Of a stretch of DNA of 64,000 bases, positions 4,361-61,260 are shown piece after piece. The DNA lies in the NCBI RefSeq assembly GCF_004210375.1, contig NW_027467782.1:20997276-21061275 (forward strand). The letters run 5' to 3'. The notes under the pieces are model-generated. The model saw nothing but the letters and a program-made list of their open reading frames with translations, was not told the origin of the DNA and did not search any database. Both the position numbers and the translations under genes were made by a program. The DNA comes from Tachypleus tridentatus. Its lineage: Eukaryota; Arthropoda; Merostomata; Xiphosura; Limulidae. Positions within the stretch are counted from its first letter, which is position 1; each line of letters begins with the position of its first letter.

Positions 4361-4510
4361 AATGACGAGAAAACCCACTTGTAGAGAAAATTATATATTT
4401 AAAAACGGCTGGTATGAGTAGAGAAAGCAAGATGGCCGAAGAAGGTCGATACGTTGTTCGCTCCTCTACTTGTGTTTTCTCTATCCATACCAGCCGTTAT
4501 TAAATATATA
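4361..4510 (+). mobile_element. Penelope-like element end with foldback
   Basis: The stretch 'tgacgagaaaacccacttg' followed by 'aacggctggtatg' recurs at 6,688-6,735 and, inverted, at 61,185-61,250. The three are copies of one repeat. Here arms 4,392-4,426 and 4,476-4,510 (35 bases, about three mismatches) form a foldback around a 49-base loop that holds a hammerhead-like core. Penelope-like retroelements are known to carry hammerhead ribozymes in their LTR-like ends. Assignment rests on that motif and not on a reverse transcriptase, none of which is visible nearby. Confidence 0.5.
4428..4452 (+). ncRNA. hammerhead-ribozyme-like core (degraded)
   Basis: Reads CAAGA, then tGGCC-gaagaa-GGTC (stem II, pairing with one G-U), then GATAC. 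The hammerhead consensus is CUGANGA, stem II, GAAA. Both conserved boxes carry changes (CTGAAGA to GCAAGA, GAAAC to GATAC), so activity is unlikely. The sequence after it, 'gttgttc', matches the other copies here. It sits in the loop of the foldback at 4,392-4,510. Confidence 0.4.
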
Positions 4511-4699
4511 GTCATATAAAACAGTGTAGGACTTGCAGCACTTAATGTTTAAAGACACTAAGTGATTTGGACTCCCTATATGCATAAATATTATAAATAC
4601 AACTTTTAATTTTCTTATTTGGAAAATTGATGTTTTCAGTTTCAAATTTTTATATGCATTTTAATTAATGCTTTATGCTTAGGCTATATGTATTCTTAC

Positions 4700-4800
4700 T
4701 GTGTGTGTTTTCTTATAGCAAAGCCACATCGAGCTGAGTCCACCGAGGGGAATTGAACCAGTGATGTTAGTGTTGTAAATTGAACACATTAATTGTGTTA
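4700..4800 (-). mobile_element. SINE family B fragment
   Basis: Contains 'cttatagcaaagccacatcg', then 'gagtccaccgaggggaattg' and 'gttgtaaattgaac'. This is the minus-strand form of the short family B repeat, tail first. It is diverged and has no clear target-site duplication. Confidence 0.5.
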
Positions 4801-4919
4801 TTCAATGAACTATGTTAACCAAAAAAAATTGTTTCATGACAGCAGCTGACAATCTGGGGAGACGATAAACCGCTAATATTTCATTAAGCAAACCCAAACT
4901 ATATTCTATTCTCATATGG

Positions 4920-5180
4920 TTCGAATTTTGCGTAAAGTTATTCAAAGACTATCTGCGCTAGCTGTCCCTAATTTAGCAGTGTAAGACTAGAGAGAACGCA
5001 GCTAGTCATTATCACCCAATGCCAACTTTTGGGCTACTCTTTCACCAACGAATACTGGGATTGACCGTCACTTTATAACGCCCCCACGGTTGAAAGGGCG
5101 AGCATGTTTCCTGTGACGGGGATTCGAACCCGCGACACTCGGATAAGTCGAGTGCTTTTACCCACCTGGCCGTGCCGGGT
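4920..5180 (-). mobile_element. tRNA-derived SINE family A, near full length
   Basis: On the minus strand it starts ccggcacggccaggtgggta (A-box region), has a B box in 'gggttcgaatccccgtc', then the body 'catgctcgcc', 'cccaaaagttggcattgg' and 'ctaaattagggacagctagc', and ends in the 'gcaaaattcgaa' tail. Such heads come from a tRNA gene, and the internal pol III promoter drives transcription while a partner LINE supplies the machinery. It is diverged from the 8.2 kb copy. Confidence 0.8.
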
Positions 5181-5904
5181 TGTATTTTCACATCGATGGG
5201 ACACGTTTACATTCTCCATGTGAAAGTTTTAATTAAGAAAGTGCTTTTACAGAAATGCCAACCATTACGATTTGAACGTAATGATTACGATTTTGGTGTA
5301 TACATTACAACTATACTCTCATACAAACAAATATTATGACTTGTTGCAACTCCCAAATTATTATATATTATATAGACCTATATAAAAAAGTGATAAATTG
5401 TTCCGACAGGGCTTGAAAGGGATGAAAAGAAAATTTCTAGTGAGATACAAATAAATTTTGATAATAAATAAAAGACATAGTCCAAATGGCTAATTGCGAT
5501 AATCATGTTTGTGCTTGAAATAATAAAAAAAATATTTGTATGCCCGACGTCTACCAATAGTTTGAGTGCGGTGCTTCTTCATACTGGATACGTGGGGGAA
5601 TCCATAGTTACGTCATCAATGGTTGTCAGCCAATCAGCGCTCGCGTAGATGGGTATTTCTCGTTTTCTAAGCGGCATAGAAACACCAATGCGATTGTTCA
5701 CAAGTGGAAAAGAAAGAGGCTTCGTTCACCAAATTGTCTTGTTTCTGGCAAATCTAAATATCATGACATGATGGTAATACATTCATCCAAAGGATGTTTA
5801 AATAATGCAACAAGTTGTCAAGATATCTGTGTATGCCTTATAAGTGTAACATTGTTTGCATTGTATTAATTGAAACAAGGCAATACCAGTACTCTCTTAA
5901 ACTT

Positions 5905-5943
5905 CTGAAAGAAAAAAAAAAGGTTCTTTCAGGTAACCGAAAC
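5905..5943 (+). ncRNA. hammerhead-like motif, weak
   Basis: CTGAAAGA is followed by an A run, then GGTT-ctttcaggt-AACC (a possible 4-bp stem II) and GAAACGTCGTTGTTTC. The GAAAC-GTYGTTGTT part matches the motifs at 6.77 kb and 61.14 kb. The first box is separated from stem II by extra A residues, so this is at best a decayed copy. It lies between two other Penelope-like ends. Confidence 0.3.
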
Positions 5944-6389
5944 GTCGTTGTTTCTCGTTTTTCTTATGTTAACCAAAAGAAGCTGATTTTATTTTTAAAA
6001 ATTTCCCTCCCAACTTTAACCGACATTTTCTTTCTTAAGAAACGAAGTTTGGGAAAGTGATAAAAAATAAAAACGAGTTTGTTTAGCCAACCACTTTCCT
6101 GATTATTACAAAGAACAACAGAACAATAATCCATAGATTTCGTAGCTGGTATTTAGCTAAAAGGTATTTTCGATAAATTTGCAGCTCTTAAGCCACAAAC
6201 GTAGTCGTAGATCAACAAATGAAAAGAAAAATGCACATCTGTTGGTTGTATACTTCGCCATTTAACTACAATAGGATATTTCAACCAAGTTTTTAAAGTC
6301 TCGCTAATTCTCACTAGTTTGTGTCAAAACGAGAACCAAGTTCAGATACGTGCATTCTATTCAGAAAACATGATATGTTTGTTTGTGTG

Positions 6390-6505
6390 AAGTTAAACAC
6401 AAAAACTACACAATGAGCTGTCTTTGTGCTCCAACTACCATGGTATCTAAACCTGGATTTTAGAATAGTAAGTCCGCAAATCTATCACTGTACCACTGAG
6501 GGGAG
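6390..6505 (-). mobile_element. SINE family B fragment
   Basis: Has 'gtgaagttaaacacaaaaac' (tail), 'gagctgtctttgtgctccaa', 'catggtatctaaacctggat' and 'ccactgagggg', in the order expected for the minus-strand form of family B. Considerably diverged. Confidence 0.45.
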
Positions 6506-6684
6506 TTCAAAAAGTAATATCTTCACTCTATCAATATTGAGACCATCTTTATTAACATCAGAAAAATATGGATGTTGTTTGTGTGTGTGTGTGAGAGAGC
6601 CTCTAAAAACTTTTAAATTCGTAACTGATAGCCAAAAGATTAATTTTACTTAAAAACTGAATGCATTTAACATATGGTTTTCTT

Positions 6685-6950
6685 GATGACGAGAAACCCA
6701 CTTGAAATACAAATGTATCTCAAAAAGGCTGGAACGTGTATTAACACTTTTATTGATAAACAGAAAACAACGTTTCGACGTTCCTAGGTCATCTTCAGGT
6801 TAACAAAGAGGGAGTTTCAATGTAACCGTTGCCAGGCATATGTCTTAGGGTCGAGAGTATAAACGGGTACGGGATAGTATGGGGCATTGTGGTGGGATGT
6901 CAGGTATTAATTAGTATATTAATTAATTAGATCGTCGCTTTGAATGCTTT
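6685..6950 (-). mobile_element. Penelope-like element end
   Basis: Opens with 'tgatgacgagaaacccac' and 'aaaaaggctggaacgtgtat', matching the repeats at 4.36 kb and (inverted) 61.2 kb. A hammerhead-like motif on the minus strand follows. The rest (6,800-6,950) is unassigned. No reverse transcriptase or GIY-YIG domain is visible, so only an end remains. A hAT transposase tail begins just downstream. Confidence 0.5.
6772..6798 (-). ncRNA. hammerhead-ribozyme-like motif
   Basis: On the minus strand: CTGAAGA, then tGAC-ctaggaac-GTC (short stem II), then GAAAC, followed by gttgttttctg. CUGANGA and GAAA are the conserved core boxes of a hammerhead ribozyme and both are intact. Penelope-like elements are known carriers. 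Whether stems I and III form and a cleavage triplet is present needs folding. Confidence 0.5.
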
Positions 6951-6989
6951 AACGACATTTATCTGGCCGTGAAGCAGCTGAAATAACCT

Positions 6990-7285
6990 CAAAGATGCCT
7001 AATCTCGGAAGTGATAATTCTAGTCAAACTCCTGCTTGTTAACCCATCAACTAATGCTGTAGGAGAAAGGAGCTTCTCGACGGCCAGAAGGCTCTAGACA
7101 TGGCTACGATCAACAATGAACTAATCTCGTTTTAATAGTTTAGCAGTTCTCCACATCCACAAGGAACGCACAGCATCGTTAGACCTCGTTTCTATTGCCA
7201 ATGACTTTGTACAAAAGAATGACAGAAGGAAGGTGAAGCTCGGTGTATTCACGGAACACGACTTTGTTGATGTTGTTCCCATCAT
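6990..7285 (+). pseudogene. hAT transposase C-terminal dimerisation domain, broken
   Basis: One frame reads LLLVNPSTNAVGERSFSTAR..., continuing ...FNSLAVLHIHKERTASLDLV. This is the hATC dimerisation block (hydrophobic L, then E/S-R-S-F-S) of a ZMYM/THAP-associated type hAT transposase. Two in-frame stops interrupt it, a TAG after ARRL and a TAA before SRFNS. Only the last ~100 residues remain; the catalytic RNase H-like core is absent. No terminal inverted repeats or 8-bp duplications were found. It abuts the Penelope-like end upstream. Confidence 0.75.
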
Positions 7286-7289
7286 TAGA

Positions 7290-8190
7290 TCACATACGGT
7301 AATTTTACTCTTCCTTGGTAAAAGTGATTTGTATTTCTATCCATCGACGTACATCAGTTTATACTTTTGCGATATGATAATGAGGTCAGTAAAATTATGA
7401 TATCAGTTTTCATATGAGATTTGATATATAAAGGTGAATAGGCCAGTAGAGTAACTGTGGCATTATTCATTTATATTTCCATTTTAAAAGATCATTAATA
7501 TAGCTATGCATTGATGAAGTAACGTGTCATCCATGTATATAATTTTACTGAGATACTAAAGCTAGCTCTATTTCGATTTTTTCTTCAGTCCTAAGTTTGT
7601 AAGCAACCTAAATGCATATTCATATTCAGTCCCCTCCCTCCTCCCCGCAAACACAGTCTGAAACGTCCCTAGTCCCTTGACAACAAACCTTGCGTCATCG
7701 CATCGAAACACATTTTACTTAATTAAATTTAGGTTAGCATCAGCATCAGAATATCTCAATGACATTTGTTAAGTCTGTATTTAGAAAATTTCCTTGTAAG
7801 GACCTGCTAATGATAGTTGATGTTGCAGAATTGAAAGTAGCAAAGTTAAACACAGTAATTTAAGATTAATTTAAGTCATACCGGAAGGCACAGAAAGAGA
7901 AAATCGATTTGTTTATTTTTTTTTATAGTCCCCACTAGAAGAAGAACTGCTAACAGGGCCTCAGAATGGGTTATCAGTATGATTAAAATCGGGGAGCTTC
8001 AGGAGACTCCGCCCCTGAACCCCTGCCAGGGGCTTTACCCCTGAACCCTACCAGGGGCCATACGGCCAGGGTTGCCTATATATATACATATATATTGCCC
8101 AACGGAGGCTTAGAACTTTCTACAAACTACGAGATTTTATAAAATTAAAATATTCACTTAAATTAAGAGAAAAATTCAAAAGGTTTGAAT
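7290..8190. other. no gene seen; small GC-rich repeat inside
   Basis: AT-rich, apart from a GC-rich patch at 8,005-8,060 in which cccctgaacccctgccagg and a near copy (cccctgaaccctaccagg) lie at 8,012-8,033 and 8,038-8,058. Each contains a CCCCT..AGGGG hairpin. No coding signal. Confidence 0.5.
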
Positions 8191-8202
8191 ACTTGACGTC
8201 AG

Positions 8203-8479
8203 AAGGCCCGGCATGGCCTAGCGCGTAAGGCGTGCGACTCGTCATCCGAGGGTCGCGGGTTCGCGCCCGCGTCGCGCTAAACATGCTCGCCCTCCCAGCC
8301 GTGGGGGTGTATAATGTGACGGTCAATCCCACTATTCGTTGGTAAAGAGTAGCCCAAGAGTTGGCGGTAGGTGGTGATGACTAGCTGTCTTCCCTCTAGT
8401 CTTACACTGCTAAATTAGGGACGGCTAGCACAGATAGCCCTCGAGTAGCTTTGTGCGAAATTCCCAAACAAACAAACAA
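8203..8479 (+). mobile_element. tRNA-derived SINE family A, well preserved
   Basis: The best full-length copy here. The tRNA-like head ggcccggcatggcctagcgc has an A box and 'gggttcgcgcccgc' serves as B box. The body 'aacatgctcgccctcccagc', 'gtgacggtcaatcccactat', 'agcccaagagttggcgg' and 'ctaaattagggacggctagc' precedes a (CAAA)n tail. Target-site duplication acttgacgtcag at 8,191-8,202 and 8,480-8,491 is exact, suggesting a fairly recent insertion. The head resembles a tRNA gene but continues into the SINE body, so I do not call a tRNA. Confidence 0.9.
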
Positions 8480-8491
8480 ACTTGACGTCAG

Positions 8492-10786
8492 TTCACAAGA
8501 ATTGAACTATGCAAACAGCTACGTAATAAAATTTCCCATAACTATTTTTTAAAAATAAGTTACTTTAAAGCTTGCACAATACAAACTAAATAATACTATC
8601 ATATTATACTTCAAATTGACAGTCATGTATATCTAACAGTAAAACAATCAGTGGTAGGAAAAGCAACTTCCTTGTTTTATATCTTGCACATTTCAAATTA
8701 TTGTAAAGAAACAGTAGTGTCTTAGAAAAACTTGCAGCCACTAATAAGAAACATAATGTATTGAATTTCCTATGCCTGGAGCAAGAAGTAGCTTGCTCCT
8801 TTATATGAAAGTGTTTGGATACAAAATTATTCTTTTGTATACGAAGGTCTAATTTTATAGTAAAGAAGTAAAAATAGAATAGAATACACAACTTTTTAGC
8901 TGTGTATCCTCTCTGTTTCCCTCCTGTTTGTGCAATGTTAAGTATACAGACTTATAGTGCCAAAGTCTGATTTCAATACCTGTATTGAGTACACCACAAA
9001 CAGTCCATTATGTAGCTTTGTGTTTGACTACACTTAAACAGATTCTTACTGTTCACTTTTCAGAATGGAATTATTTTCTACATGTTCCTTTTTCAGTCTG
9101 CATGCTGATGCAGCTTCCTACTCTAACTTGTTTGTGTTTATATTTTACATTTCTTTTTCCTACATTGAATATTGTTAATAAATATTAATTGTTATGGTAG
9201 TTTTTAAAACTTTATTTTTAAATCTGTACCTTCAGATATTTGAATGATTAATTACTATCACTTAACAAAAGTGAAAAAAAGCCTTGCAAGAATTTGGTTT
9301 GTGTGAATGTTCTGAGAAAATTGCAAAAACATCTTTCTCAAACATGTGATCGATTGGACATAAGGTGATTCTCATTCTAATATTTTTGGAGGGCTACTGA
9401 GTGAAACCAAGTTTTATCACATAGATCTCAGGACCATTTCATCTTGGAATTAAGTTTATTGTTTTGTGATAGATTCAGCTCTGAAAATTTTCAAGTCTGT
9501 GATGGTCTCATGGCTCAACAAAAATTTCACCAACAACTCCAAAGCCACAGTAAACACAAATGTTGTGATGTGAATTCCATCACAATTCTCTGTTGAATAA
9601 CATAGCTTCCCAGGCTCAATTACCATGGCTGTATCACAAAAACACAACAAATTCCCTTAAGAAGATGTCGATAGCATGAAGGATGAATACTGTTTCTACT
9701 TGGACTTTCCAGGTCACTGAATTTCTAATAGCCTCTGTAAAAAAACAACAACGACAAATTTTGAACACAACTTCTGCATCAAGGGCTGAAGAAATTCCAA
9801 ATGTTTTAAACAAGTAGATTCTGAGTTGAGTTTAGCCACTAGCTCATGTAGATTGAGTTGTCAAGATGCATTCGTAGGTATGATGTCTAGTTCAACTAAT
9901 ACTGGGCTTAGATTGCATAAAATGCCATTAGTGATGAAATTGAGCTTCAAGTGTTCTCTGGGTGAGTCAGGAGCTTCCTCATCTTTGCTCTGTATCAGAC
10001 AATAGTTTCTAATAGTTCAAATTGTTTATATAGAATGGTTACAAGCAATATTTGAGTGAAGAGCAACATCTCAGATTTCAGTTTGACACTATTATTTATT
10101 CACTGAGCAATCAAATCTATTTGAATATCATGTATTGCTATTTTAAAGGTGAACTTATAATGGAAGTTGCCAACCAGTTTTTTTTAACAAAATGTGAACT
10201 AATCTCTGCAGAAATACCACCCACTGTTGAGCCTGAAACCAATGAATGAATATATGTTCAAGAGGTTGTATAGCTCACAAATGTGCAAGTGATGTTCTTT
10301 GGTGTGTTATAGTTGCTTCTTGAACGTCTGAGCTTGCTATTTGAGTATTCTGCTAATAATTTTAACTCATCACAGAAGCAGAAACTAAGTGAAGCATTCA
10401 TAAATACAAATGATGAGCATTCCATAAAACAACTAATGTTAAACTTCTTTGGAGTACAACAAATGTTGCCAATGCTGAAAATTAATGGATATAAAAGGAC
10501 AAAATAATATAAGCTTTGGAGATTGTTTAACTGTCTCCAGAAGAAGAAAGAGACATTAAGTAGGTGATACATGATAACACACTTTTTTACATCATAAATG
10601 GATTCATAATGAAAGTAGATGTCTTATGTTTCATGGTTCTATGTAAATTTATAAAAAATTAGAAATGAATAAGTTTCTTTGATAATGAAAATCTGTAGTG
10701 TAAAGATATTTGAATTGAAAGGAGTGGGCTAGTAACATGATGAGAGTGATAAAATTGTGATTTTTGTTGGAATTTATCTTATTTAG
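8492..10786. other. no gene supported
   Basis: Open frames such as 8,604-8,891 (-), 10,052-10,249 (+) and 10,313-10,507 (+) have no recognised domain. Since an SLC4-like exon starts at 10,787, upstream exons of that pseudogene could lie here, but I found no sequence resembling the SLC4 cytoplasmic domain. The 10,313-10,507 frame has a soluble, K/Q/N-rich composition that might be coding, but I cannot place it. Confidence 0.4.
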
Positions 10787-10890
10787 GAGGGAAGAAAAAA
10801 GTGTATAAAAACAGATAAAGAATCTTCTATTGAACCAGAAGAGGAAGAAGAAAAATTACATGAAGAAAGTGGACTAAAAAGAGCAGGAAG
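10787..10890 (+). pseudogene. SLC4 pseudogene exon: acidic linker
   Basis: Acceptor 'cttatttag' ends at 10,786 and donor 'gtgaga' begins at 10,891. It is open for 34 codons and ends with two bases of a split codon. The product ends HEESGLKRAGR; in SLC4 proteins the equivalent 'L-R-TGR' precedes 'LFGG' at the start of the membrane domain. The rest is K/E-rich, as the linker usually is. This exon has no lesion. Confidence 0.75.
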
Positions 10891-11629
10891 GTGAGATATT
10901 CCAGCAACCTTTATTTTTAAACTGTAAAAGCTGTAGGTTTCATGTATAAATGTAAGCTTTATTTTACCTTTCTCTTTTATAAGGAGAGAAAGAATGCTGT
11001 ACCAATATGAGGTATTCTTTTTGGTTAATGTAATTAACTTCATCCAGTTGTATAGTTTGGAGATGGTAATTTATTCTGCAGGTGAAGACCTTTTCTTGTC
11101 ACTGTTGGAAGGTCATGAGAGAGATGTTAATGGAAAAACTGATGTAGCTGTAAGAGCTGAGGAATGTGGAAACCTGGAATATGTAGTGTTGCATGTTGAT
11201 GGGAATACCACATATTAAGAAATAATTATTCCACCATTTTAGATCTCTGTTTTTCAGCTGCTTCTCTCTCTTTCTCACAGTTATGTCAATAAACATTTCA
11301 CTCAGTGATCATTTTGTGACCTCCTTATGCTTATCATTAAAATATCATTTGAACAAAAATCAAAGTAATGTAATGTTGAAATGTTGAAATTGTTTCCGTA
11401 TCAAACTTTTATTGGATGAAAAAAAGAAAGACAGATAAGAACCTTGAACACTGTTTTCAGAAAAATTACTCTTAAAAAATGAACTATGAATAAAAAGTTT
11501 TTGTTAGAATGCTAGCCATGAGGAGGTAATAATTTTACCATCTTGTGTAATAAAAATCCAGCAGTTATTTTAAGGATTTTTTTAAATAATAAAAGGTAAA
11601 AGGAATAAATTTATTTTTCCTTCCATAAG

Positions 11630-11892
11630 GTTGGAAGGGCTCATGGTTAAGGGTCTGGCATGGGGTTGAAACACTTTACCAAATATGCTCGCCTTTTTTT
11701 TGGCCATAGGGGCTTTATAATGTGATAGTCAATCCTCTTATTCATTGGGAAAGAATATCCTGAGAGTTCGTGATGGGTGATGTTTAAATAGCTGTTTCCA
11801 CTCTAGAAATTATCACTTTAAAATCAGGAATGGTCACTGTGAATAGCCTGCAAATATATTTGTACAAAATTTAGTGACAAATCAAACAACTT
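11630..11892 (+). mobile_element. SINE family A, heavily diverged
   Basis: 'gctcatggttaagg', 'aatatgctcgcc', 'taatgtgatagtcaatcctc', 'cctgagagttcgtgatgggtg' and 'aaatttagtgacaaatcaaac' follow the family A order with many changes. An old copy in the SLC4 pseudogene intron. The B-box region is lost. Confidence 0.6.
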
Positions 11893-12008
11893 TTTATCAA
11901 AAGAAAGTATATCAAAGAGCTTAATATAACCATTATATACCATAAGAATCAATTATTTTTTTTACATTTTGTTTACCATTAAAATATTTTCTCATTAATT
12001 CTTTTCAG

Positions 12009-12183
12009 GTTATTTGGTGACTTGATCAACAACATTAACTGAAAGAAATTCTGGTATTTGAGTGATTTCAAGGATGCTCTAGCTCTTCAGACTGTAGCTT
12101 CTGTTTTCTTTCTGTACTTTGCTTGTATTGCTCCAATTATCATTTTTGGTGGCTTATTGGGAGAAGCAACAGATTCCCATCTG
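12009..12183 (+). pseudogene. SLC4 pseudogene exon: first transmembrane block
   Basis: Acceptor 'cttttcag' before 12,009 and donor 'gtgaga' after 12,183. The first base completes the Arg codon from the previous exon, then LFGDLINNIN, a TGA stop where the family has Arg (probably CGA to TGA), then KKFWYLSDFKDALALQ, a hydrophobic helix and FGGLLGEATDS. The SDFKDAL and FGGLLGEAT motifs are diagnostic. One in-frame stop and otherwise excellent conservation indicate fairly recent decay. Confidence 0.85.
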
Positions 12184-12189
12184 GTGAGA

Positions 12190-12990: not shown

Positions 12991-13470
12991 TTATGGAATT
13001 ATTTAAGCTTGCTTTCAAACTAAAGTTTTAGAGAAATTAATGTAATTAAATGTGTTTGTGACAAAACTTTTACATGTATTTATAAAGACTGAAGGGATAC
13101 TTACAAAAATTATTTATTTGTGTCAGTGTGCAACTGTTTGGTTTTTAGTTTGTATGTTTATGATTAACTTGCTCCGAGAATGTTTAGTTTCATAAAGAAA
13201 TAATTAGAATTGTATTAAAATGAAATTGTGTGTATGCATCATCTTATTGTTTGGATTATATGGAACATTTATTTCTGAATTTATCATTTATTTGAAAGAT
13301 ATTTTTTTCATTTATCTAATCTAGACAATATTTGATTAAACAAAACACCAACTAACATAAGGAATATTTCATTTTTACCTTCCTCAAAGTTTATTGAAAA
13401 CTATCTTGTGGTACTTGTGATTTATATAAGTTGTTTGTCTTAAACATAGCAATACTTTTTCTTTCTCAAG

Positions 13471-13605: not shown

Positions 13606-13859
13606 GTATGTTTTGTACTTTTTGTGTGTGTGTGTTTTGAATTGATATTTGTTGTTTCTTTGTTGTAAGTTTTGTAAATAATTTAGATTATGCAAGATTT
13701 TTTCATTATGGTTAAAAAGTTGTACAGTTCATTTATGTGTGTATGGTATAATAAAAGTATTTTTATACTGTCAAGTTAAACTTTAATGGTTGTGTAATAG
13801 TTTGGTTTCCAAAACATACTTACTTCAACAGGCACTTTACTGTCAGGGTTTCTCTTTGC

Positions 13860-17693: not shown

Positions 17694-17951
17694 AGACCTG
17701 GTACAGGTATTTGTGTATGGCACTCATCTTGTAAGTGAGGGTTGTACATTGGAACCCTGTCACACCAACCATGCTCGCCCTATCAGCTGTGGAGGCATTA
17801 TAATGTGACAATTGATCCGACTATTAATTGGTAAAAGAGTAGCCCAAGAGTTGGCAGTTAGTGGTGATGACTAGCTGCCTTCCCTATTTGTCTTATAGTG
17901 CTAAATTGGGGACTCTCGTGTAGCTTTGCATAACATTAAAAATAAACAAAT
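17694..17951 (+). mobile_element. SINE family A, diverged
   Basis: The head is changed ('agacctggtacagg'), but 'aaccatgctcgccctatcag', 'agcccaagagttggcag', 'gtgatgactagctgccttcc' and 'gctaaattggggact' with an 'aataaacaaa' tail identify the family. About 260 bases, near full length. Confidence 0.75.
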
Positions 17952-21067: not shown

Positions 21068-21068
<1 letters not shown>

Positions 21069-23220: not shown

Positions 23221-24008
23221 TAAGAACCACTAGCAATTTGTTAAAGAGAATATGTGGCAGGCAGGAAGATTCTGATTTTATAGTTTATGGCTCTGTAACC
23301 AAATAACATAGAAGGGTATAAAAAACTATGCTATGCCTGACTAATAATAATATTTTATACATAATTTATGTCAAATTCCTTACTTCTCATAAGGACTGCA
23401 CAATACCGTGAAATGCTTACACAACCAGCATGATTCTCCCATTCTGCAGCAACATATGTGACACTACAATTTTCATGCAGATGGTGCCCCTCTGGTGAAC
23501 ACATGAAACACATTTTGGAGGAGTACTTACACAAACTAAATCATTCACACACCACTTTCTGTGTCAATGGCTACCTCATTTACCAGACATTATATGAGTT
23601 TTGGGAGTATCTTGAGTTGCTGAAAACTTGGCTTAGAAACGAGAGTATAAACAAATACAGGATTGTAGGGAGCCTTGAAGTTGGATGTTACTTTTTTCCT
23701 GTACAAATTAATAACCTATTCCTTTACATTGGTTTAATTATGGCTTTAGTTCTTGTATAAGTAAGGCTTCTTTAATTTTGCATTTGTTTACATGTAAACA
23801 AAGAAGCTCTACTCCCTTTTGTCCCTAAGAATTTTAAAGAGAATGCACCAGTCCCTGGAGAAAAAAAAGATTTTAATGATCAAATGTGTTTTTCGTAGTT
23901 AACACCATTGAAGTGGAAAAGAAAATTTTTAAGCATGAAAATAACCTGTAAATTTGCTGTACATTTTTCAAAAGCAAAGTGAGAAGCCAGTATTAATAAG
24001 GTACTTAC
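23221..24008. other. no gene recognised
   Basis: A 100-codon plus-strand frame at 23,458-23,760 starts with Cys/His-containing residues but matches nothing I know and has no splice or promoter support. The rest is AT-rich. Confidence 0.35.
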
Positions 24009-28666: not shown

Positions 28667-29352
28667 GTAGTTATGCCAATATTTGCCTGACATTTTAAAG
28701 AAAGATGTTTAATTTATCTTTAGAATAACATGGGTTGCCCTATTTCCTATTTGTAAATGCATAAACTTTACTACATTTTGTCTGTTATAAATACATAATT
28801 AATTTTTACCAAAAGAATTGATTATCTGTAAAAGAAAGTTACCAGTAATACAAAAAATGTTTAAAAAAACGTGTAACTATAGATTAAATGTTTTATTGAC
28901 ATCTCATTGAACTGAATGTGTTAAATACTGGACCTGGAGCATATAAAGTTGAATAACTCTGGAATTTACAATAATCTAAACTAAGACTGAAGTGAGAAAC
29001 TGAGCAGTGGACACTTCAGAATAAAAGACTCATTGAATGATGAATGGATGCAAAGAAAATACAAAACACTCCTCATTTATGATCAACAATTTAAGCTGAA
29101 CAATCAACCAACTACATCACTGCATCTCAAACTATGATTAACTGATTTTGCCCGAGATGGAAAAATGTGAAAATTTCATTCAGCAAATAAATGAAGTGGA
29201 AGAGTGAATAGTGCTCATAAGATAAATGAAAAACAGAAACTAAACCTGTTAGGAGTAAACCAACTTTCATAGCTCATTAAAGAGAATCTTCACATATGCA
29301 AAGCCACATGAAATTATTTCATAACAATAATTTGTACACAAATACTCCAGAG

Positions 29353-29377
29353 CTGATGAAGTGCTGTTGCCCAAAAC
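29353..29377 (+). ncRNA. hammerhead-ribozyme-like motif
   Basis: CTGATGA, then agtgc-tgtt-gccc (partial stem II), then AAAAC (consensus GAAAC), then 'atggtattcatgttttatcaataaag' split over the next bases. The trailing 'tttatcaataaa' phrase is shared with the motif at 6.75 kb. It is one change from a consensus core. Located just downstream, in plus coordinates, of a minus-strand LINE, but on the opposite strand. Confidence 0.4.
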
Positions 29378-29479
29378 ATGGTATTCATGTTTTATCAATA
29401 AAGTTATTTTAAATTGTTGACTCTTTCAACATTACTTTATAATCTATTTTGCATTTGTTATTTTCTCACCTATACAATT

Positions 29480-49049: not shown

Positions 49050-49334
49050 TTGTTGTTGTTGTTGTTTTTGAATTTCGCACAAAGTTACTTGAGGGTTATC
49101 TGTGCTAGTCGTCCCTAATTTAGCAGTGTAAGATTAGAGTGAAGGCAGCAAGTCATCACCACCCACCGCCCAGTCTTGGGTTCTCTGTTACCAACGGATA
49201 GTGGGATTGACCGTCACATTATAAAGCCCCCCACGGCTGAAAGGGCGAGCATGTTTGGCACGACGGGGATGCGAACCCGCGACCCTCAGATTACGAAGTC
49301 GCGCGCTTTAACGCTTGCTTGGCCATGCCGGGCC
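49050..49334 (-). mobile_element. tRNA-derived SINE family A with 12-base duplication
   Basis: Minus-strand family A: (TTG)n tail, 'gtccctaatttagcagtgta', 'gggattgaccgtcacattat', 'gggcgagcatgtttggcac' and head 'ggccatgccgggcc'. Flanked by exact gtaggctaacaa at 49,038-49,049 and 49,335-49,346. It inserted into or next to the family B SINE just upstream. Confidence 0.9.
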
Positions 49335-52300: not shown

Positions 52301-55245
52301 TTTGAAAAGAAGAAAGTGGTGTTTGTGTTTATTATTTCCAAAACAAATCTGATTGATAAAATGTTTTAAAATGAATTTATTGCAAATAGAAACAGTTAAC
52401 TGCTTTATAAGCTTTAATACTTTTAAAGACAAACATATTTATCAATGCATTTGATGCACAAGTAAAGCATTCACATGCTGAACTGGAAACAAGTGTTGAT
52501 AAGTGGATATTTCTAGGCATCTGTTAAAAAAACCTTGCAAGAATTTTTTAAAATTATTTTCCTGATTCAGTAAAGTGAAACTTCAATTACTCAGGAGCCT
52601 CTTGTTGGGAAAGTTTTGTTTACGTATTTCGGCATACATGCTGTTTTGCCTATCTTCATGAAAAGTATTTAAAGGTTGTTTAATCAAATTATAGATGATA
52701 ACAACCAGAGTAACCAAACAATAATAAAGCTGTATTGTACTTAATTTTACCCTTCTTTCATAAATCAACAAACATGGCAGTGGACTTGAAGTACTATTGA
52801 CACCCACCTGGAAAATAGAATAACAACTGTTCTCAGTGTTCTGGAAATGAAACTAGTATTTATGTCTGAGAAAAGAAGGAAAATAGCTAAATTTTGTCTT
52901 GATTTGTTGAAAGTAGAATTAGTTGGTATACTGATACCATAAACCTCATTGCTATATCGTGTATATATATATATAAAACACAAATATCTGTCTTTCTCTT
53001 GTTACATTATCTTCACTGGACCAATCTTAACCAAACTGTGTGAAATGTTTTTAAAGAAGACCAAAAACAGCACTGCTTTCAATAGATGACTATCCTTCTT
53101 CATGAGAGTAAATGTGAAGATAATTTGGAAAAGGGGACATATTAATGTAGGGTTCGTAACTCCTCCACCCCCATTATTGCTGTTATTGAACACTTTAATA
53201 AAGTTAACATTAATTATATTTGTAGATGGTGTCTTGATCTTAAACTAAAAAGTAAGACACGTTTATAATTTTTCTAATATGCATGCATACAGTGTGCCTA
53301 AAGCAGACAAACATTTAATATATACATCTCAGAGACTGTGCTGGGCTCTCTTTGGAGGAATTAAATGAACAAAGATGACTGCCTTTGTTACAATAATACA
53401 TAAACTGAGATGAAGTTTCTATTTCAACAGCCACCATAAGGCTGGTATGAAAAGCTGTTGTTTGAGTTGTAATAATTTCTTACTTTGACCTATCTGTAAG
53501 ACACTTCTGTAGCCATTGGTTTTCTATTAAATAATCATGTGAAACACTGCAGAAAGATGTGATGAGCTGGGTGTTGAAAGCAGGTAACAGAATGCACCCC
53601 TACTGACATTACAATTGATACTACCTCTTTCTACAGGGTCATAATAACCATTATACAGTCTAGTAAATGAATGTTCTAAATGAATTGTATGAAAATCAAG
53701 ATTTTTCTAATTTATCATATCTTCCAGCCCCAGGTTTTGTTTAAGTTCATGTACAAATAAAGGACAGGTACCTCGGCTTGATAAATATGAAACATAAAAT
53801 TTGGAGTTATTTTTATGATTCTAGCTCAGAACTTCTTACTAGGGCATGTGCTAGTTGACTTCTAGGTGTTGCTGTACCTAATATGAGTCATGACAGCTGG
53901 TACCTGCTGCTTCGTGGGATAGTTCACCTGGTATCAACTTGAGTGTGAATTTGTATCATTAATGGCACAAAAGTAATATGTTCTTCTGGATTATTGCCAT
54001 CTAAGTTGATTGGCCAGCTACAAGGAGAACATAAATCATGTAATTAGTTTCTGTTTCGAAAGAATTGTGACCTGTAAAGTGCAGAATTTTTATCTAGGTA
54101 TGTGTTGAGTCTGCAGTGCATTTTTTAATATTTTTTTCCTTTTGAGTCTGTTTTAATTTTCATTCCTCATGTCAATTTTATTTTGCAAAGTGGTAAACAT
54201 CTGAACTAATTATAGATTATCAAAAAGTTAGAACTTGTGTTTGGTAAACCCCATGTTCTTTATAATGTAATATTTTCTCACACTAATCTTCCATCTCAAT
54301 AAATCACCAAGTGTGTCAGTATGCAGGGTGTGGATTACATGAATGCCTCTATTTTTGTAAACTATAATAATTAATCACATCAGTACTTCCAAAGTTTATT
54401 TTTCATTGTATGGATCTCTGGTAAATCTGTTTTAAGTTTATTTTATATTGTCTTGACAGAACTAATGGGGGCATCTAGTCAACTGTGAAAGTATTATCAA
54501 AGTAGCCATTATTCTAAACCAAAACATATATGGTTAAGAATAGAATAGCTCTTCATCCCTACCATGCCTTGTATTGAGTGAATCATTACGGTCTGCATTT
54601 GAAAATAGATCTTTGTGGTCATCCATTGCACTGTTTCAAGTGTTGTTGTTCCTTCAGACTCTCCACTGTATTTTATGCCCTCACTTTTCTTCTAATGAAG
54701 ATTGATAGCCCTCATTACATTCCAGTTTTCCCATAAGTACCACATCTTTCTTATCTGGGTGAAATGTATACCTGGCTCAGTCTCCCACATCAGTTTTCCA
54801 AATTTGACTTTCTTGTCTTCAGGTGTGTCCTCTGGATGGCTTTGGAGGATGCTTCTTTCCTTCCCTAAAACTGTTTCTTCCACCTATTCAATGTAAGATT
54901 CTTGCTATATGTTGATATGACATAATGCACTGTATTGGAAGTTGTAATTCACCTAAACTGTAAATGTATTTCTGGAAGGTTCTTACCAAATTTCACACTT
55001 CCCATCTTACCTTTTCATTAAAACCTGATGCTTCCAGATTCTAAGAGAACTTAAAGTGATATCTGGTAGAATTGAACAGAGGAAGTCATAAGCGTAATGA
55101 GAATACCTTGCACTATTACTGATGGAGGGTTGTCACATGATAATTTTAATGAATAATTTGCAATCAAGAGGAGGCAGTAACTCAGGACATGCTTGAAAAC
55201 AAGTTTCACAAATAGATGCCAGCATTGAATGAGAATATCTATTGA
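49347..55245. other. long stretch without a recognised gene
   Basis: AT-rich DNA with scattered short frames, none with a domain I recognise. Includes a G run (50,363-50,371), a 28-base direct repeat (51,900 and 51,961) and a minus-strand frame at 54,692-54,883 of charged composition that could be a decayed exon or transposon piece but is unassigned. I see no RNA genes. Confidence 0.4.
51900..51988. repeat. 28-base direct repeat, 61 apart
   Basis: 'tagtcaccaaaactgttta' plus nine more bases is identical at 51,900-51,927 and 51,961-51,988. The intervening 33 bases are unrelated. Confidence 0.85.
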
Positions 55246-55255
55246 TGTAAAAGGA

Positions 55256-55530
55256 TTGTTTGTTTGTTTTATAATTTCGTGAAAGCTACATGAGGTCTAT
55301 CTCCACTAGCCATCCTTAATTTAGCAGTGTAAGACTAGAGGGAAGACAGCTAGTCATCACCACTCGCTGCCAACTCTTGGGCTACTTCTCTACCAATGAA
55401 TGTTGGGATTGACCGTAACATTAGAAGTCCCCTACAGCCAAAGGGTGAGCATGTTTGGTGTGATGGGGATTGGAACTAGCAACTTTCAAATTACGAGTTG
55501 AGGGTCTTAACTGCCTGGTTATTTCAGACC
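55256..55530 (-). mobile_element. tRNA-derived SINE family A with 10-base duplication
   Basis: Minus strand: 'tgtttgttttataatttcgt' tail, 'cttaatttagcagtgtaaga', 'caactcttgggctacttctc', 'gggattgaccgtaacattag', 'ggtgagcatgtttggtgtga'; the head is decayed. tgtaaaagga lies on both sides (55,246-55,255 and 55,533-55,542). Confidence 0.85.
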
Positions 55531-55542
55531 TGTGTAAAAGGA

Positions 55543-56946
55543 GATAAGTACTTATTGGAATTACATTTTAGTACAAAAAATTATAAATATCACAACAATT
55601 TTATAGAATACGTGATGTAGATTAAAAATAAGTATGCAGATTAATCAGTCTGTAGAATGGTATTCTTGAAGTATTGAAAATATGATTCAATTTATAAAAT
55701 TTAGTAATTTTAAATATTAAAAACATCTAATACTTTTATGACCTGCCAAGGAAAGAAAAAAAAAATGTAGTGTTGGTAATTTGATTCATCCAAAAACAGC
55801 TTACATCAATAAGGGTTTGTATTCAGTTGTAATTATTTCAGTCCCAGTAAAAATAGTTGCATAACTCAGTGTTAAAAATGTGTAACTGAATAACTGTACA
55901 TTTTGATTTAAAGGGGAGATTCGACAAATTCTGAAGAGTTAAAATAACAGTTTTAGAAATATATTATTTCCAAGGAACTTTCAAAGTGTGATCACAGTAA
56001 TGGTTAGAAGGTTTATAGATCAAAATAATCCATTGTGTTATTAATATTGTAAGGATTAAAACCATACATTTACTAAAATAGATTAATTTCTGCATATAAT
56101 CTAAGCAGAACTGTTGTATTACATATTCAAAACTAACATCATATTATTAGGACATTGCGAATGTTACAGCTACATACACTTCTAAAAGGTTATTAATATA
56201 ACTTGGAGAAATGGTGCTTACTTGTGTGAATATAATACACCACTTACTTAGTAAAATTCATATAATTAAATAGTAATTGTGCACAATTTTCTAACTGCTG
56301 CATAATAAACTTACAAGGAAAGTATACAGTTTTATCACCTCACAAAAATATAAGACTAGAAACATATTAATCCATTACTTTTTAAAAGGTACAATAATTT
56401 TATAAATAGCATGTGGTAATATGTTCACGTACCAGCACATTACAAATTATTAGTATACATAATGAATAATGGACTATTTTTAAAAAGGGTCGATAATGAG
56501 TCTGAAAACGTCTCGTGGTCGTCGTTTTTCGAAGATTGTTTTTTCTTTGTAGGAGTAAAAATGTTGAGAACACGAGACAGTAATAGAAGATTCTGTCGAA
56601 CACAGCATCAGTTCCATATCTGTGATGAGACTGACTCGATAATGAGTGTCGAAATCTTCAAAAGTCGCTAACAGGTTGTTTGTCTGTCTTAGTTCTCCAG
56701 GCTATCTTGGAAATACATATCTAGGTTTCAACATGCTTGTTTGGAAGAAATCAGTTGATGTTTAAAAGTGCGTTTGTGATGATTGAGTTTTCATTATATC
56801 CTTCTTTGTATGGAGTGTCTGTGTAAATTTGTCTATTGACTTAAATAGCTTCTCGACTTGTGTATTCTGCATGAACATGTCTTTGAAATTTGTTTCTAGT
56901 TGTGGATGCTTTTTTGGTAAGAATGGCTTGGATGAAGGTGGCGGAT
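55543..56946. other. no gene recognised
   Basis: AT-rich until 56,450. 56,460-56,680 has more CpG and a 69-codon plus-strand frame (56,462-56,671), without a recognised domain. It could be a promoter-proximal region but nothing else supports that. Confidence 0.3.
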
Positions 56947-56958
56947 GTCCAATGTTTC

Positions 56959-57230
56959 GGGGCCCAGCATGGCCAGGTGGTTAAAGCGCTCGAATCGTAA
57001 TCTGAGACTTGCGGGTTCGAATACCCGTCGCACCAAACATGCTCGCCATTTTAGTCGTGGGAGCGTTATAATGTCATGGTCAATCACACTATTTGTTGAT
57101 AAAAGAGTAGCCCAAGAGTTGGTGGTGATGACTAGCTGTCTTCCTTTTAGTTTTACACTGCTAAATTAGGGACGGCTAGAACAAATAGCCCTCGTGTAGC
57201 TGTGCATGAAATTCAAAAACTAAACAAAAA
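56959..57230 (+). mobile_element. tRNA-derived SINE family A, first of a pair
   Basis: Head 'gcccagcatggccaggtggt', B box 'gcgggttcgaatacccgtc', 'aaacatgctcgcc', 'gagtagcccaagagttgg' and 'ctaaattagggacggctaga'. Lacks about ten bases in the middle ('ggtggtgatg' follows 'gttg' directly). Possible short duplication ccaatgtttc / ccaatatttc at its ends. Confidence 0.85.
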
Positions 57231-57262
57231 ACCAATATTTCCTTGAAGTTTACTATTCTTCT

Positions 57263-57540
57263 GGCGCTGCATGGCCAGGTGGTTAAGGCGCTTAACTTGT
57301 AATGCGAGGATCGCGGGTTCGAATTTCCGTCTCACCAAACATGCTCGTCCTTTCAGCCGTAGGGCCATTATAGTGTCCCGATCAAACCCACAATTCGTTG
57401 GTAAAAGAGTAGCCCAAGAGTTGGCGGTCAGTGGTGAAAACAAACTGCCTTCCTTCTATTCTTACATTGCTAAATTAGGGACGGCTAATACAGTTAGCCC
57501 TCGTGTAAATGTGCGCGAAATTCGAAAAAGAAAACAAAAA
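57263..57540 (+). mobile_element. tRNA-derived SINE family A, second of a pair
   Basis: Same family, head 'ggcgctgcatggccaggtgg' and B box 'cgggttcgaatttccgtc'. A 32-base direct repeat (57,231-57,262 and 57,540-57,571, three mismatches) flanks it, either a long target duplication or the trace of a SINE-plus-flank duplication. Confidence 0.85.
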
Positions 57541-57997
57541 CCAATATTTCGTTGAAGTTTTCTATTTTTCTACCTAAAAGTTAAAGCTTAACGTCAAGGC
57601 CACTTATTAACGAGTGTTTTATATCTTGAATATTATGAAGTGTTTGTTTATTATGATTTATATGTTTATTGTAGAGCATATTCAGCGGGGGTATCAACCG
57701 TGTTGAAAATCGATACACTTATTTCTGTCCCACTGTGGAACTTTTTTATAAAGTGAATGGAGTAAGTTGTTTGTTTGTTGTTAAACGCGATGTTTCGTGA
57801 AGGGCTATTTGTATGCTGTCGAAGGTTTTTAAAATTCGAATTTTACCTTATATGTGCTATCAGAATTGTTATCACTTGCAGCATTGAAATCAATAAAAGA
57901 TACATTATACTTAAGTTGATTACTTTTGTTGTGTTTGAGAAACGAGCTTTTGCTGAAAACGTGCTAAGTGTCTTAGTTTTGTTTCTCTTTACACGTC

Positions 57998-58110
57998 CCT
58001 CCCAGTGCCACACAGGTATGTCTGCGGACTTGCACCGCTACAAACCGGGTTTCGATACCCATTGTGTAGCTTTGTGTTTAATTCCAAACAAGCAAGCAAT
58101 TAAATCTTTA
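57998..58110 (+). mobile_element. SINE family B
   Basis: 'cctcccagtgccacacaggt', 'atgtctgcggacttgcaccg', 'ccgggtttcgatacccattg' and 'agctttgtgtttaattccaa' with a (CAAG)n-like tail. Confidence 0.65.
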
Positions 58111-58159
58111 GACGTAATATGTGAAAAAAAACAAAAGTAATTTATCACGTGACTGACTG

Positions 58160-58375
58160 GACAGTGAGTGGTCAGCGTTCTGGACTGTGAATCGGAGGTC
58201 TTACACGTTGCCTTAAAATCGCGCCTCGCACTTTGGGTCTGTGTCAAAAGAGCGACATTGAAATGACATTATTAGAGTGGCTCAAGGGCTGGATGTCAGC
58301 GCTGTTGTAGCCACTTTAAAATTAGGGACTACTAACCCAGATAGCCCTTGTAAATATCCGAAACAAACAAAATTA
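58160..58375 (+). mobile_element. tRNA-derived SINE, third type
   Basis: Head 'ggacagtgagtggtcagcgt' with 'tctggactgtgaatcggagg' is tRNA-like, the body includes 'gtggctcaagggctggatgt', and the end 'aaattagggactactaaccc' with 'aacaaacaaaatt' resembles the family A tail. So it may be a family A relative with a different tRNA-derived head. Confidence 0.5.
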
Positions 58376-60655
58376 TTTCTCTTAGTGGCCGTTCCCTACA
58401 CAGCTTTGACCCTCACTGAGCTGAGACTCCGTCGCCTTTTGACTATGAGATTTCACTGACCCTTATGCCCTTGGGTTAAGTCTTGATGGGAGATAAATCG
58501 CTTGTACTTGTCGGATTTTAAAAGACTTTCATAAAAGCAGTCTTCACGTGTCAAATTGTTCAGATAGTTTTCAATAGCATCTGTTTGTACAAGTGTGCAC
58601 GAAATATTTCTATTACCTAAATTGCTGAGACAAAACTAGTACAGTTTAACTGTTGTCTCCTGGCGACATATATTTCATAATAGTTTTTACTTTTATGAGA
58701 CTTTTTATTTGTTTTAAGTTCAAATTTCTTTAGTAACAAGTTTCCCCAGTATAGCTGTTTACATGGAACACCAATCAAATATTACTTTGTTATTATATGG
58801 TTACAAGTCTTATTTTACATTGTAGGTTATTAGTAGCGTGTTAACAGTAGTCAGGATTTTTGAGATTGGAAGAAATATTTTTACCCTGGCATTGATTACG
58901 TAAAACAAACCGTAAAAAAGTTATAACATAATCGTTTAAAATTTATGGATTAAAATCAATCAAGCATGACTACATTCATTGATTATTATTATTATTTTTT
59001 TTGTCGTACTTTGGTCTCCAAGCGTTTCGGACTCGTTCAGGCCATTCTAGAGGTTGTACAAAGTAAATATAGGCAGCGATTATGTGTTAACTGTACTTTT
59101 CAGTTTCTACATTTTGTTATCTTGGGTTAAAAATCGTACACTTAGCTCCTGTTAGTAAAGTTTTTAAAGATGGCATCTATAAGGGCTGAAACATTGCTAA
59201 AGAATGCAGGTTACACTGTCAAACTTGATGCTTCGCGTGAAGGGCCCTTTAAAAGAAATTCAAAATACTTCCGCTAGTTTTAGGCAGAAATATATAATTG
59301 CTCAATATGATAAAATTAGTTGGACTAACGGTTGTGCTCACTTGTCTCTTGTTAAATGCAAAGCTACATAACGGACTATATTTGACTGTGCCCACCGCTT
59401 ATCGAACTCTCATTTTTATCTTGATGAGCCTGAAAGATTACTTCTGTGTTAGTGAGAGCCCCCCACGCTAGTGGACAGTATAAGAACATGAAGACTTACG
59501 CTAATATAAGCCTTCACTTCGTGCAACTAACTATTCACGTTATATGATATACATTTTAGAGAGAATTTTGTAAACTTGGCTGGGAGCTGTAAATTCGAAT
59601 AGACCTTCAATGTCATGCAATCAAGGTATTTAAGTTGTACCTGTGAAAAAAATAAGGGCTGGCGGAATAAGGAGTAAGTAACTGAACAAGAACATTAAAC
59701 AAATATTTGGAAGTACATGCTTGGATTGGAAACGTTGTTTCCGTCTTATTTGGTAATACGACGTGAACTGGAAGATAGGTGTTAACCCTAAAGTTGATTT
59801 GGCTCTAATAACGTTAAAAAACTCGTTGAACGTTTGAAACCTGTCTCGCACGTACACCGCTATTGTGAAAGATTCGAATCTTCGTTCCAAACTTTTCTCT
59901 AAAACTAGTAGTTAACGTGAATTATTTTTCGTGTTTAATCAGCGATAACAGGAATAATTATCTGGATACAGATAATTAAGATTTATTTCCCTTTTGCTCT
60001 TTAACCTTTTGTTTAAAATCGTAATACTATTTTCTGATATCTTTGTACCGATATCGCCTTGAAAACATACTGTTTATCAGTATTGTAGGGTCAATACTAA
60101 CTAGCTCTTACTGTTATTTTTAGCCGCGGCATAGCGGTTCGTAGTACACCTCTAAGTTGTTGTTTTTTAAAAGCACAAACGTTTAGCTCACAGCTTCGTC
60201 ATTTCTTGATGGATTTGAGATTTAATTGCAGTTTTGAACTCGGAAGGTCAAACCCTTTCGACTGACGTATTTGATCACGTCCAAAGTCTCATAGATGAAT
60301 CTACTCTAATCGTGCCTAAAAGAATTTCTATTTGAGGGTAGGCGAGTAGATAACGTGCTGAGTAATAAAGTTGAATCGGGTTGTATGCTTGATATTGCCT
60401 ATACATAAAAATATAGCTAATAAATCGACTAGTAGATTATCCATGCCTAAAAGTGGTCCAAGTGTTGTAGATATTAAGGATTCCTTGTTATTTATTTTAG
60501 TAACCTTTAATTTTTCGGAGCAATTCAATAACGTAATAAGTTATTAGTAGCGTACTAGGTTAATACTGTATTTCTGGAAACGGATTCCTTCTTATCCTAG
60601 AATTTCCAGTTCATCAATTCGAAAATAAATGTTGGGTTATTACAAAGGGTTGCCA
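58376..60655. other. no gene supported
   Basis: More CpG than the rest of the window but no recognised coding block. The 86-codon minus-strand frame at 59,630-59,890 has no recognised domain. A scrap 'cccccacgctagtggacagt' at 59,461 may be the start of a family B SINE. Confidence 0.35.
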
Positions 60656-60659
60656 TTGT

Positions 60660-60780
60660 TGTTTGTTATTAAACACAAAAATTCACAAAGGGTTATCTGT
60701 GTTCTGCCCACCATGGGTATCAAAGCCCGATTTCTTGTGGTATAAGTCCGCCGACATTCCACTGTGCTACTGGGGGAATC
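60660..60780 (-). mobile_element. SINE family B
   Basis: 'gttattaaacacaaaaattc', 'gggttatctgtgttctgccc', 'accatgggtatcaaagcccg' and 'gtgctactgggggaa' on the plus strand are the complement of family B. Confidence 0.65.
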
Positions 60781-61099
60781 ACAGAGGGTTCTTGCCTTCA
60801 TAATATTTATCTTTTGCCATTACTGAAAAAACCTACAATAACTTCAGAATATATTTCACGGTATCACTGACCATTAGATACCACTTTGGAGAGCTAATTA
60901 TTAGAATATTTTAGAATAGGCCTTTGCAGTTATAACTCTGAGTGTAAGTTGTAGAACAGTCTTTCATTGCAGTTATAACTTTGAAAATGAGTTATCAGTT
61001 CGAGAATGATACCTGTAATATTACCCCACCTTTAAATAATCTAAAAACGTCATTTTTGTATAAACATTTATTTACAATAAAAGGAATACAACATTAAAA

Positions 61100-61260
61100 T
61101 CATTGCAACTTCTCTTTGTTGACATGAAAATGACATAAGAATGTCGAAATGTTGTTCTTCACTTTACTTTACTTAAAGTTTCAATACTCGTACCAGCCAT
61201 CTTGATAATACATTTTTACTTCAAGTGGATTTTTCGTTATCACGGACAATAAATAGTTAT
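61100..61260 (+). mobile_element. Penelope-like element end
   Basis: A hammerhead-like motif (61,123-61,150) is followed by 'ttcaatactcgtaccagcca', 'atacatttttacttcaagtg' and 'gatttttcgttatcac', the reverse complement of the repeat at 6,685-6,750 and 4,361-4,415. No reverse transcriptase nearby. Confidence 0.5.
61123..61150 (+). ncRNA. hammerhead-ribozyme-like motif
   Basis: ATGAAAA, then tGACAT-aaga-ATGTC (perfect 5-bp stem II), then GAAATGTTGTTC. The GAAA box is intact and the first box has changed from CUGANGA to AUGAAAA. The perfect stem II suggests that this copy or its parent was once under selection to fold. Confidence 0.45.

Follow-up and report, generated by a model that had tools for sequence, protein, structure and literature searches.

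Hammerhead-like motifs in Tachypleus tridentatus as worn 3' ends of Penelope-like elements, and double-ended insertions that probably reflect priming on both target strands

We analysed a 64,000-nucleotide stretch of the Tachypleus tridentatus genome (C19:20,997,276-21,061,275; from here on the window) in which a first-pass annotation had pointed out five hammerhead-ribozyme-like motifs, and searched the 2.17 Gb genome (205 contigs) for their relatives. Three of the motifs, at 4,428 (+), 6,772 (-) and 61,123 (+), are homologous and are worn 3' ends of a very abundant Penelope-type family with a small hammerhead fold. The motif at 29,353 is, judging by its alignment, a decayed relic of a third family (C) of Penelope-like elements (PLEs), and the one at 5,905 belongs to no such family. 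The link to Penelope elements and the reading as solo ends, both proposed in the annotation, hold for the three homologous motifs and, in decayed form, for 29,353, but not for 5,905. At 4,428 two 3' ends are joined in inverted orientation, a two-headed shape which hints at the insertion mode of these elements. We consider it probable that the motifs are PLE 3' ends and that such double ends come from priming on both target strands.

The hammerhead core pattern CTGANGA-N10-22-GAAACGTTGTT has 19,269 exact matches in the genome, compared with 6 for the reversed control pattern. The pattern for the tail, a ~35-nt PLE 3' extension, is matched 10,550 times with <=2 mismatches while its control is matched 0 times. 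For the 6,772 stretch, scoring covered 40 of 1,920 candidates and 43 matches were listed, which makes its copy numbers lower bounds. Genome copies of this motif share a common 3' end ('...CAAGTGGGTTTCTCGTCATCA') and vary in their 5' truncation points, as expected for a retroelement. All three homologous motifs adjoin the common 3' end, in line with the same repeat having been noticed beside three motifs; the phrase 'cgagaaacccacttg' is the reverse complement of the element's last bases. The recurring 'gttgttyt' phrase is likewise explained, as the 3' strand of stem I following the presumed cleavage site GUU^GUU. Two PLE traits, an optional 3' tail and target-site duplication, are both found in this family.

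The longest family A copies carry broken, PLE-like frames upstream of the motif, with YRYVDDT in loci L008 and L013 and NIIYKIQCNNCHDFYIGE in L008, and frames resembling reverse transcriptase (RT) can be recognized by eye in L008, L013, L025 and L027. One of five stretches scanned, L022, matches RVT_1 (E 2.6e-6, 27.7 bits, below the Pfam cut-off of 29.6) as well as NCBIfam RT models (E down to 2.4e-7, far below their cut-offs), and its best PDB match is a retron RT (E 0.22). Because longer copies have RT-like frames and L022 matches RT profiles, the family appears to have RT-bearing relatives, and the idea of a purely non-autonomous family is not borne out. The earlier statement that no RT exists here was nearly right: using the five PLE stretches in tblastn, the only coding trace detected in the window was a 26-codon remnant of an open reading frame (ORF) at 23,714-23,791 (-), with 69% amino acid identity, E 8e-6 and one internal stop.

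Copies read AAC-CUGANGA-N-stem II-GAAACGUU-GUU. Stem I is GUGAAC/GUUCGC in family B and GGAAAC/GUUUUC in family C (L064). For stem II, families A and B have GACC/GGUC, the 61,123 copy has GACA/UGUC and L062 (family C) has GGGC/GCCC; stem III is the palindrome ACGU. The cleavage triplet GUU, read directly from the copies, fits NUH, and cleavage would occur at GUU^GUU. The core end and stem II together form an AUG. From there it is 24 nt to the presumed cleavage site and, in family B, another ~90 nt to the tailed end, giving ~114 nt by our own count, for which the reference rows had been cut four bases beyond the tail motif (90-95 nt past the site). In Anolis, reverse transcription starts 111-118 nt into an ORF that begins at stem II (PMC11167929). 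A further hammerhead-like motif was seen in L207 (~77-121), with stem II GAAAG/CUUUC and GAAACAUC-GUC, and perhaps represents a fourth PLE family.

Covariation was evaluated in 23 sequences, hand-chosen to span families A-D. Stem positions pair in 84.5% of cells compared with 80.3% in shuffles, where MAFFT misaligned some of stem II in the rows of families C and D and the affected cells count as gaps or mispairs. Compensatory change, which the first-pass annotation had named as a check, is present: 12 cells are changed on both sides compared with 3.9 in shuffles. Double changes occur in 6 of 10 pairs, a number reached by 8 of 500 shuffles, and sliding the partner by 1-3 columns lowers pairing to 19-57%. 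RNAalifold recovered stem II alone. Stems I and II thus covary in these alignments, a supporting signal made up of few independent events because it comes mostly from four related families. A covariance model built from 23 copies (R1) has exactly three window matches at E<0.01, namely 6,759-6,806 (-) with 65 bits, 61,116-61,163 (+) with 54 and 4,419-4,465 (+) with 28; its training set includes 6,772 and 61,123 and not 4,428. The next-best window match is found at 59,726 (E 0.6), and neither 5,905 nor 29,353 has a match at E<=10 in the window scan.

The claimed order of CUGANGA box, stem II and GAAA box is retained as an intact core only at 6,772 (CUGAAGA and GAAA, with stem II GACC/CGUC forming 3/4 pairs); the boxes are broken at 4,428, 29,353 and 61,123. 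At 4,428, the CUGA box is absent (GCAAGA) because the insertion junction cuts through it, and GAAA reads GATA; the forward arm (4430..4514) starts inside the hammerhead, of which a remnant is left at ~4431-4465. The core at 61,123 is ATGAAAA with C3 and G8 replaced, and this hammerhead is very probably dead, since the Anolis hammerhead is inactive once C3 or G8 is lost (PMC11167929). At 29,353, CUGAUGA is present and the GAAA box lacks its G, and 14 divergent genome matches show 75-86% identity to part of the query. The 5,905 motif was rejected as a family member. Its core is CTGAAAGA plus a poly-A run, and each of the 5 genome matches found for it is located next to a copy of the 6,772 insertion, within a single duplicated segment.

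The 4,428 copy consists of an inverted tailed 3' end and a forward tail-less 3' end between identical 11-bp duplications. We collected three samples of tail-bearing ends (40, 40 and 80 loci). Samples 1 and 2 came from 100 listed tail matches, taking the one-mismatch matches on contig C1 in order and then 4 of 19 exact ones; skipped C1 one-mismatch matches were those near taken sites (32,055,645; 46,247,535; 48,103,917), 61,858,420 (= L072) and 65,298,392 (other pattern variant). Sample 3 comprised 80 of 100 listed matches of another tail variant (107 in all), the 20 left out being already fetched, close to a taken site or the last three listed. Merging duplicated loci by flank identity (including L106/L107) left 31, 40 and 63 unique ends. 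Among these 134 ends, 62 are double-ended (14, 25 and 23 per sample), with two unique loci whose arm alignment failed (samples 1 and 3) counted as not double-ended; longer double-ended insertions were missed because the fetched spans were short (~780 bp in sample 1, ~330-350 bp in samples 2 and 3). By type, 54 are tail/no-tail, 6 tail/tail (L101, L120, L146, L179, L206, L240) and 2 intermediate (L227, L236). The tail-less end lies 54-63 nt past the cleavage site in 46 of the 54, and tailed forward ends lie at 87-90. A duplication score >=9 was obtained for 35/54 tail/no-tail insertions compared with 0.6% of 2,000 mispaired flanks, and the flanks of L146 are inverted rather than direct repeats. 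Family A behaves alike: in L012 and in L014-L016 (these three probably one duplicated locus), a second, inverted end begins at the equivalent of window position 6,715-6,716, ~36 nt short of the tailed end, while the inverted pieces in L019 and L023 stop short of any 3' end. A near-constant total length seen in L067-L086, 20 loci picked by similarity to 4,428, was a selection effect of the search, and these loci were excluded from every junction statistic.

How the two arms relate to each other bears on their origin. Palindromic copies could be made by self-priming (snap-back) on the antisense template, with one arm templated by the other, as has been proposed for inverted-junction palindromes of bdelloid Penelope elements in the accessible text of PMC3846280. 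We regard this as improbable here. Although arm ends lie within 10 nt of each other in 10 of 56 double-ended insertions, arm limits are uncorrelated overall (r -0.12), and where lengths differ by >10 nt (46/56) the arm extending further 5' is the forward one in 30 cases and the inverted one in 16, an extension impossible for a copy of the other arm. The tail is present on one arm only in most insertions. Of 31 classified pairs, 26 have both arms from one subfamily, compared with 12.2 when shuffled (maximum of 10,000 shuffles: 23), a concordance which self-priming would explain and which indicates that arms usually come from one source. Yet 5 of the 31 pairs differ (L118, L143, L155, L159, L188), by a margin as narrow as one or two letters for at least one of the arms, and the unclassified L187 joins two subfamilies, clearly by eye. 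All 56 junction pairs differ as well (duplicated loci merged, limits as aligned). This is as expected for independent events and makes it highly unlikely that a single foldback (MITE-like) element was moved whole by a DNA transposase, in spite of the inverted ends and ~9-17 bp duplications seen in many copies. Independent arm limits together with junctions that are all different favor two-strand priming over self-priming.

Under two-strand priming, the transcript would carry the minimal hammerhead, whose ACGU stem III would need a second copy or a protein to be completed. The element's protein would cut the target with a stagger and prime reverse transcription at internal start sites, one of them yielding ends with the ~35-nt tail and the other tail-less ends. 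Anolis PLE protein cuts and extends both strands in vitro (PMC11167929). If element sequence came from one strand only, a simple 5'-truncated copy would result (6,772, 61,123), and if both target strands primed, each on its own RNA or RNA stretch, two inverted 3' ends would be joined (4,428). The joined ends would then have unrelated lengths, lie inside duplicated target DNA and mostly consist of one tailed and one tail-less end. We infer the order of priming and the join from the observed structures and statistics. A more specific version is offered tentatively, at slightly less than even chances: both strands prime, each of the two start sites serves one end, short double-ended copies arise commonly, and the template RNAs are possibly paired via the palindromic stem III. 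That the stem III palindrome holds two template RNAs side by side is speculation; if true, this pairing would be a structural role for the ribozyme.

Several results weigh against this interpretation. When single sequences are folded, stems I and II are retained by the family B copy (z -3.6), but part of its core is paired; the 6,772 copy (z +0.57) does no better than shuffles and has neither of the two stems properly formed. Values of z are -2.1 for the family C composite and -1.8 for the stretch at 4,428. The Rfam covariance-model search suggested by the annotation found no hammerhead in the window, either at the gathering score (0 matches) or at E<=10; scans of L014, L062, L064, L102, L119 and L207 were likewise empty at E<=10. 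The annotation had named such a miss as one part of what would refute it, but it is not decisive because L119, which has the commonest motif type, is missed too, and because minimal PLE hammerheads without helix III are described in the available part of PMC6155905. Chance or low-complexity look-alikes, for which Rfam finding none would speak, are hardly a credible explanation. CGAAACGTTGTT with <=3 mismatches is indeed no commoner in the window than in shuffles (50 versus a mean of 53.7), and 5,905 may be such a case, but the 19,269 versus 6 exact genome matches, the common 3' end and the covariation contradict this explanation, which is refuted for three of the five motifs. As a separate observation, a single Rfam Hammerhead_1 (RF00163) match was found among the best 73 of 227,747 candidates, in L001 (C13:126,883,561-126,883,605, -), with 34.1 bits just above the cut-off.

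Also on the negative side, four of the five PLE stretches have no RVT_1 match and the sole match is below the cut-off, and a GIY-YIG endonuclease has no convincing Pfam, NCBIfam or PDB match in the stretches scanned, IIY...YIGE being recognized by eye only. Arm limits are good to a few nt only, the 26/31 subfamily agreement is also explicable by one RNA molecule, and 19/54 tail/no-tail insertions have a duplication score <9. A share of >=90% tail/no-tail, predicted before sample 3, failed there (18/23), as did the prediction that tail/tail pairs lack duplications, since L179 has one of 7 bp. Tail frequency was estimated from 20 hammerhead copies taken regardless of tail from the first 37 core matches, without neighbours or look-alikes; 8 had a tail, 11 had none and 1 could not be assigned. 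In favor of the interpretation, tail/tail pairs (6/60) are far below random pairing at the resulting 42% (P ~5e-8; 7e-7 with intermediates as tailed). This frequency, however, rests on 19 copies, two of which (L252, L253) look like duplicates of a single insertion; at a true tail frequency of 20%, P would be 0.03, or 0.09 with intermediates as tailed (on 61 and 63, pre-merge). Three of the 20 copies (L249, L255, L264) have fully resolved double ends, all tail/no-tail, and inverted pieces in L259, L261 and L265 have ends that could not be resolved.

The position of insertion ends relative to the cleavage site counts against the same interpretation. With hammerhead-cut RNA as the template, one would expect forward arms to start at the cleavage site. 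Samples 1 and 2 suggested this (8/39 forward arms by eye; 3/10 and 4/21 in-range ends by script), and the idea was dropped because sample 3, for which it had been stated beforehand, gave 0/19 in-range ends. Pooled, 7 of 56 forward arms and 3 of 132 inverted arms lie at the cleavage site (forward: -3 to +4). There is hence no trace of ribozyme action in the inserted ends. Inverted arms stop at the 5' edge of loop II (-20 to -17) in 12/132 cases (e.g. L087, L092, L142, L187, L233; P 1.5e-4 for 102 in-range ends versus a uniform spread, the interval having been picked with the data already in view) and immediately outside stem I (-40 to -37) in 10/132 (e.g. L111, L112, L123, L182, L211). Sample 3 agreed in part with prediction, with 8/45 in-range inverted arms at -21 to -14 and 6/45 at -40 to -36. 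The motif may conceivably no longer be a ribozyme here and be kept for another role, e.g. as a protein binding or copy-start site. We consider this unlikely on balance while giving it more weight than self-priming: in Anolis, hammerhead mutants left in vitro insertion unaffected and no RNA-seq ends were found at the cleavage site, but the Anolis hammerhead does cleave with its protein present (PMC11167929), and core nucleotides are unchanged in thousands of copies in the T. tridentatus genome.

In the field, the integration mechanism of PLEs and the reason for their retaining a hammerhead are still open. With 10,550 tail matches and 62/134 sampled ends being double-ended, the T. tridentatus genome probably contains short insertions by the thousand that allow both ends and the duplicated target to be read. 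Self-priming, one-strand and two-strand priming make different, countable predictions for such insertions, and the counts favor two-strand priming.

Table 1. Coordinates of PLE-related features in the window. Identities refer to genome copies; R1, covariance model described in the text.
Feature	Position	Strand	Remarks
Left target-site duplication tataaaacagt	4346..4356	.	identical to 4515-4525
Inverted arm, PLE family B 3' end with tail	4357..4429	-	92-97% identity to L088, L102, L116; 84-86% to L117, L125
Forward arm, PLE family B 3' end without tail	4430..4514	+	86-88% identity to L102, L116 over 4431-4510
Right target-site duplication, 4,428 insertion	4515..4525	.	identical to 4346-4356
Target-site duplication tgaatgcatttaac	6658..6671	.	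one-base indel vs 6941-6953
5'-truncated PLE family A 3' end with tail	6672..6940	-	82-97% identity, 100% segmental copies excluded; homology observed for 6672-6918, outer limits taken from duplications
Minimal hammerhead, presumed cleavage GUU^GUU	6759..6806	-	R1 65.4 bits, in training set
Target-site duplication tgaatgctttaac	6941..6953	.	pairs with 6658..6671
PLE remnant, last ORF codons and 3' UTR, ends before hammerhead	23616..23793	-	blastn E down to 2e-28
Decayed 3' end, PLE family C (by alignment)	29345..29450	+	alignment with L058-L066
5'-truncated PLE 3' end with tail	61101..61244	+	74-79% identity to family A copies
Hammerhead, C3/G8 changed	61116-61163	+	R1 54.4 bits, in training set

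Beyond these features, the stretches 61,100-61,260 and 29,280-29,450 recur at 97-100% and 95-100%, respectively, mostly on the window's own contig C19 (window included, 28 of 40 listed matches for the former and 15 of 21 near-identical matches for the latter), and three such matches lie ~9.17 kb apart around C19:30.09-30.11 Mb; recent amplification of segments seems to have taken place on this contig. By eye, the stretch at 7,000-7,300 (+) resembles the C-terminal part of a hAT transposase in decayed form. Dispersed SINE-like repeats are found at 4,934-5,144, 8,205-8,511, 17,759-17,885, 49,081-49,291, 55,282-55,491, 57,027-57,571 and 63,081-63,446, some copies of which score below threshold in Rfam.

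Compared with known systems, minimal PLE hammerhead variants (Lunse et al. 2017) reportedly cleave as dimers, and by description the motif analysed here resembles them in its conserved core and reduced stem III. Metazoan retrozymes are alike in carrying type I hammerheads in non-coding repeats, but are, according to the accessible part of PMC7229834, non-autonomous ~300-bp tandem repeats, whereas our motifs are dispersed PLE ends; in 30 aligned loci, examined without a genome-wide tandem search, this tandem layout was not encountered and copies were dispersed and 5'-truncated with differing flanks. The Poseidon PLE of Anolis carolinensis is similar in having an RT ORF, a hammerhead whose stem II opens with an AUG, 3' ends ~114 nt past that AUG and an optional 30-40 nt tail defined by two start sites (PMC11167929). 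It differs in that the start site was reported not to differ between strands in vitro (PMC11167929), while here the two ends mostly use different sites. In our family, stem III is ACGU and the triplet GUU.

Judging from the accessible portions of PMC6155905 and PMC3846280, and from PMC11167929, PLE hammerheads, the tail, inverted pseudo-long terminal repeats (pLTRs) with one tail and target duplications are already published. No comparable count of double-ended or two-strand PLE insertions was found in the literature we could consult, PMC12910113 included and subscription journals partly covered. A close parallel is found in Penelope families of the bdelloid Adineta vaga which, in the available text of PMC3846280, show pLTRs in inverted orientation, of which one bears a 31-bp tail and the inverted copy is 37 bp shorter, together with 8-10 bp duplications. 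Those pLTRs flank long elements and are ascribed there to self-priming, whereas in T. tridentatus many are solo 3' ends of very short length, sampled here in quantity, and their arms are independent. PLE ends that are inverted and differ in their tail are thus known, and the counts are the new addition.

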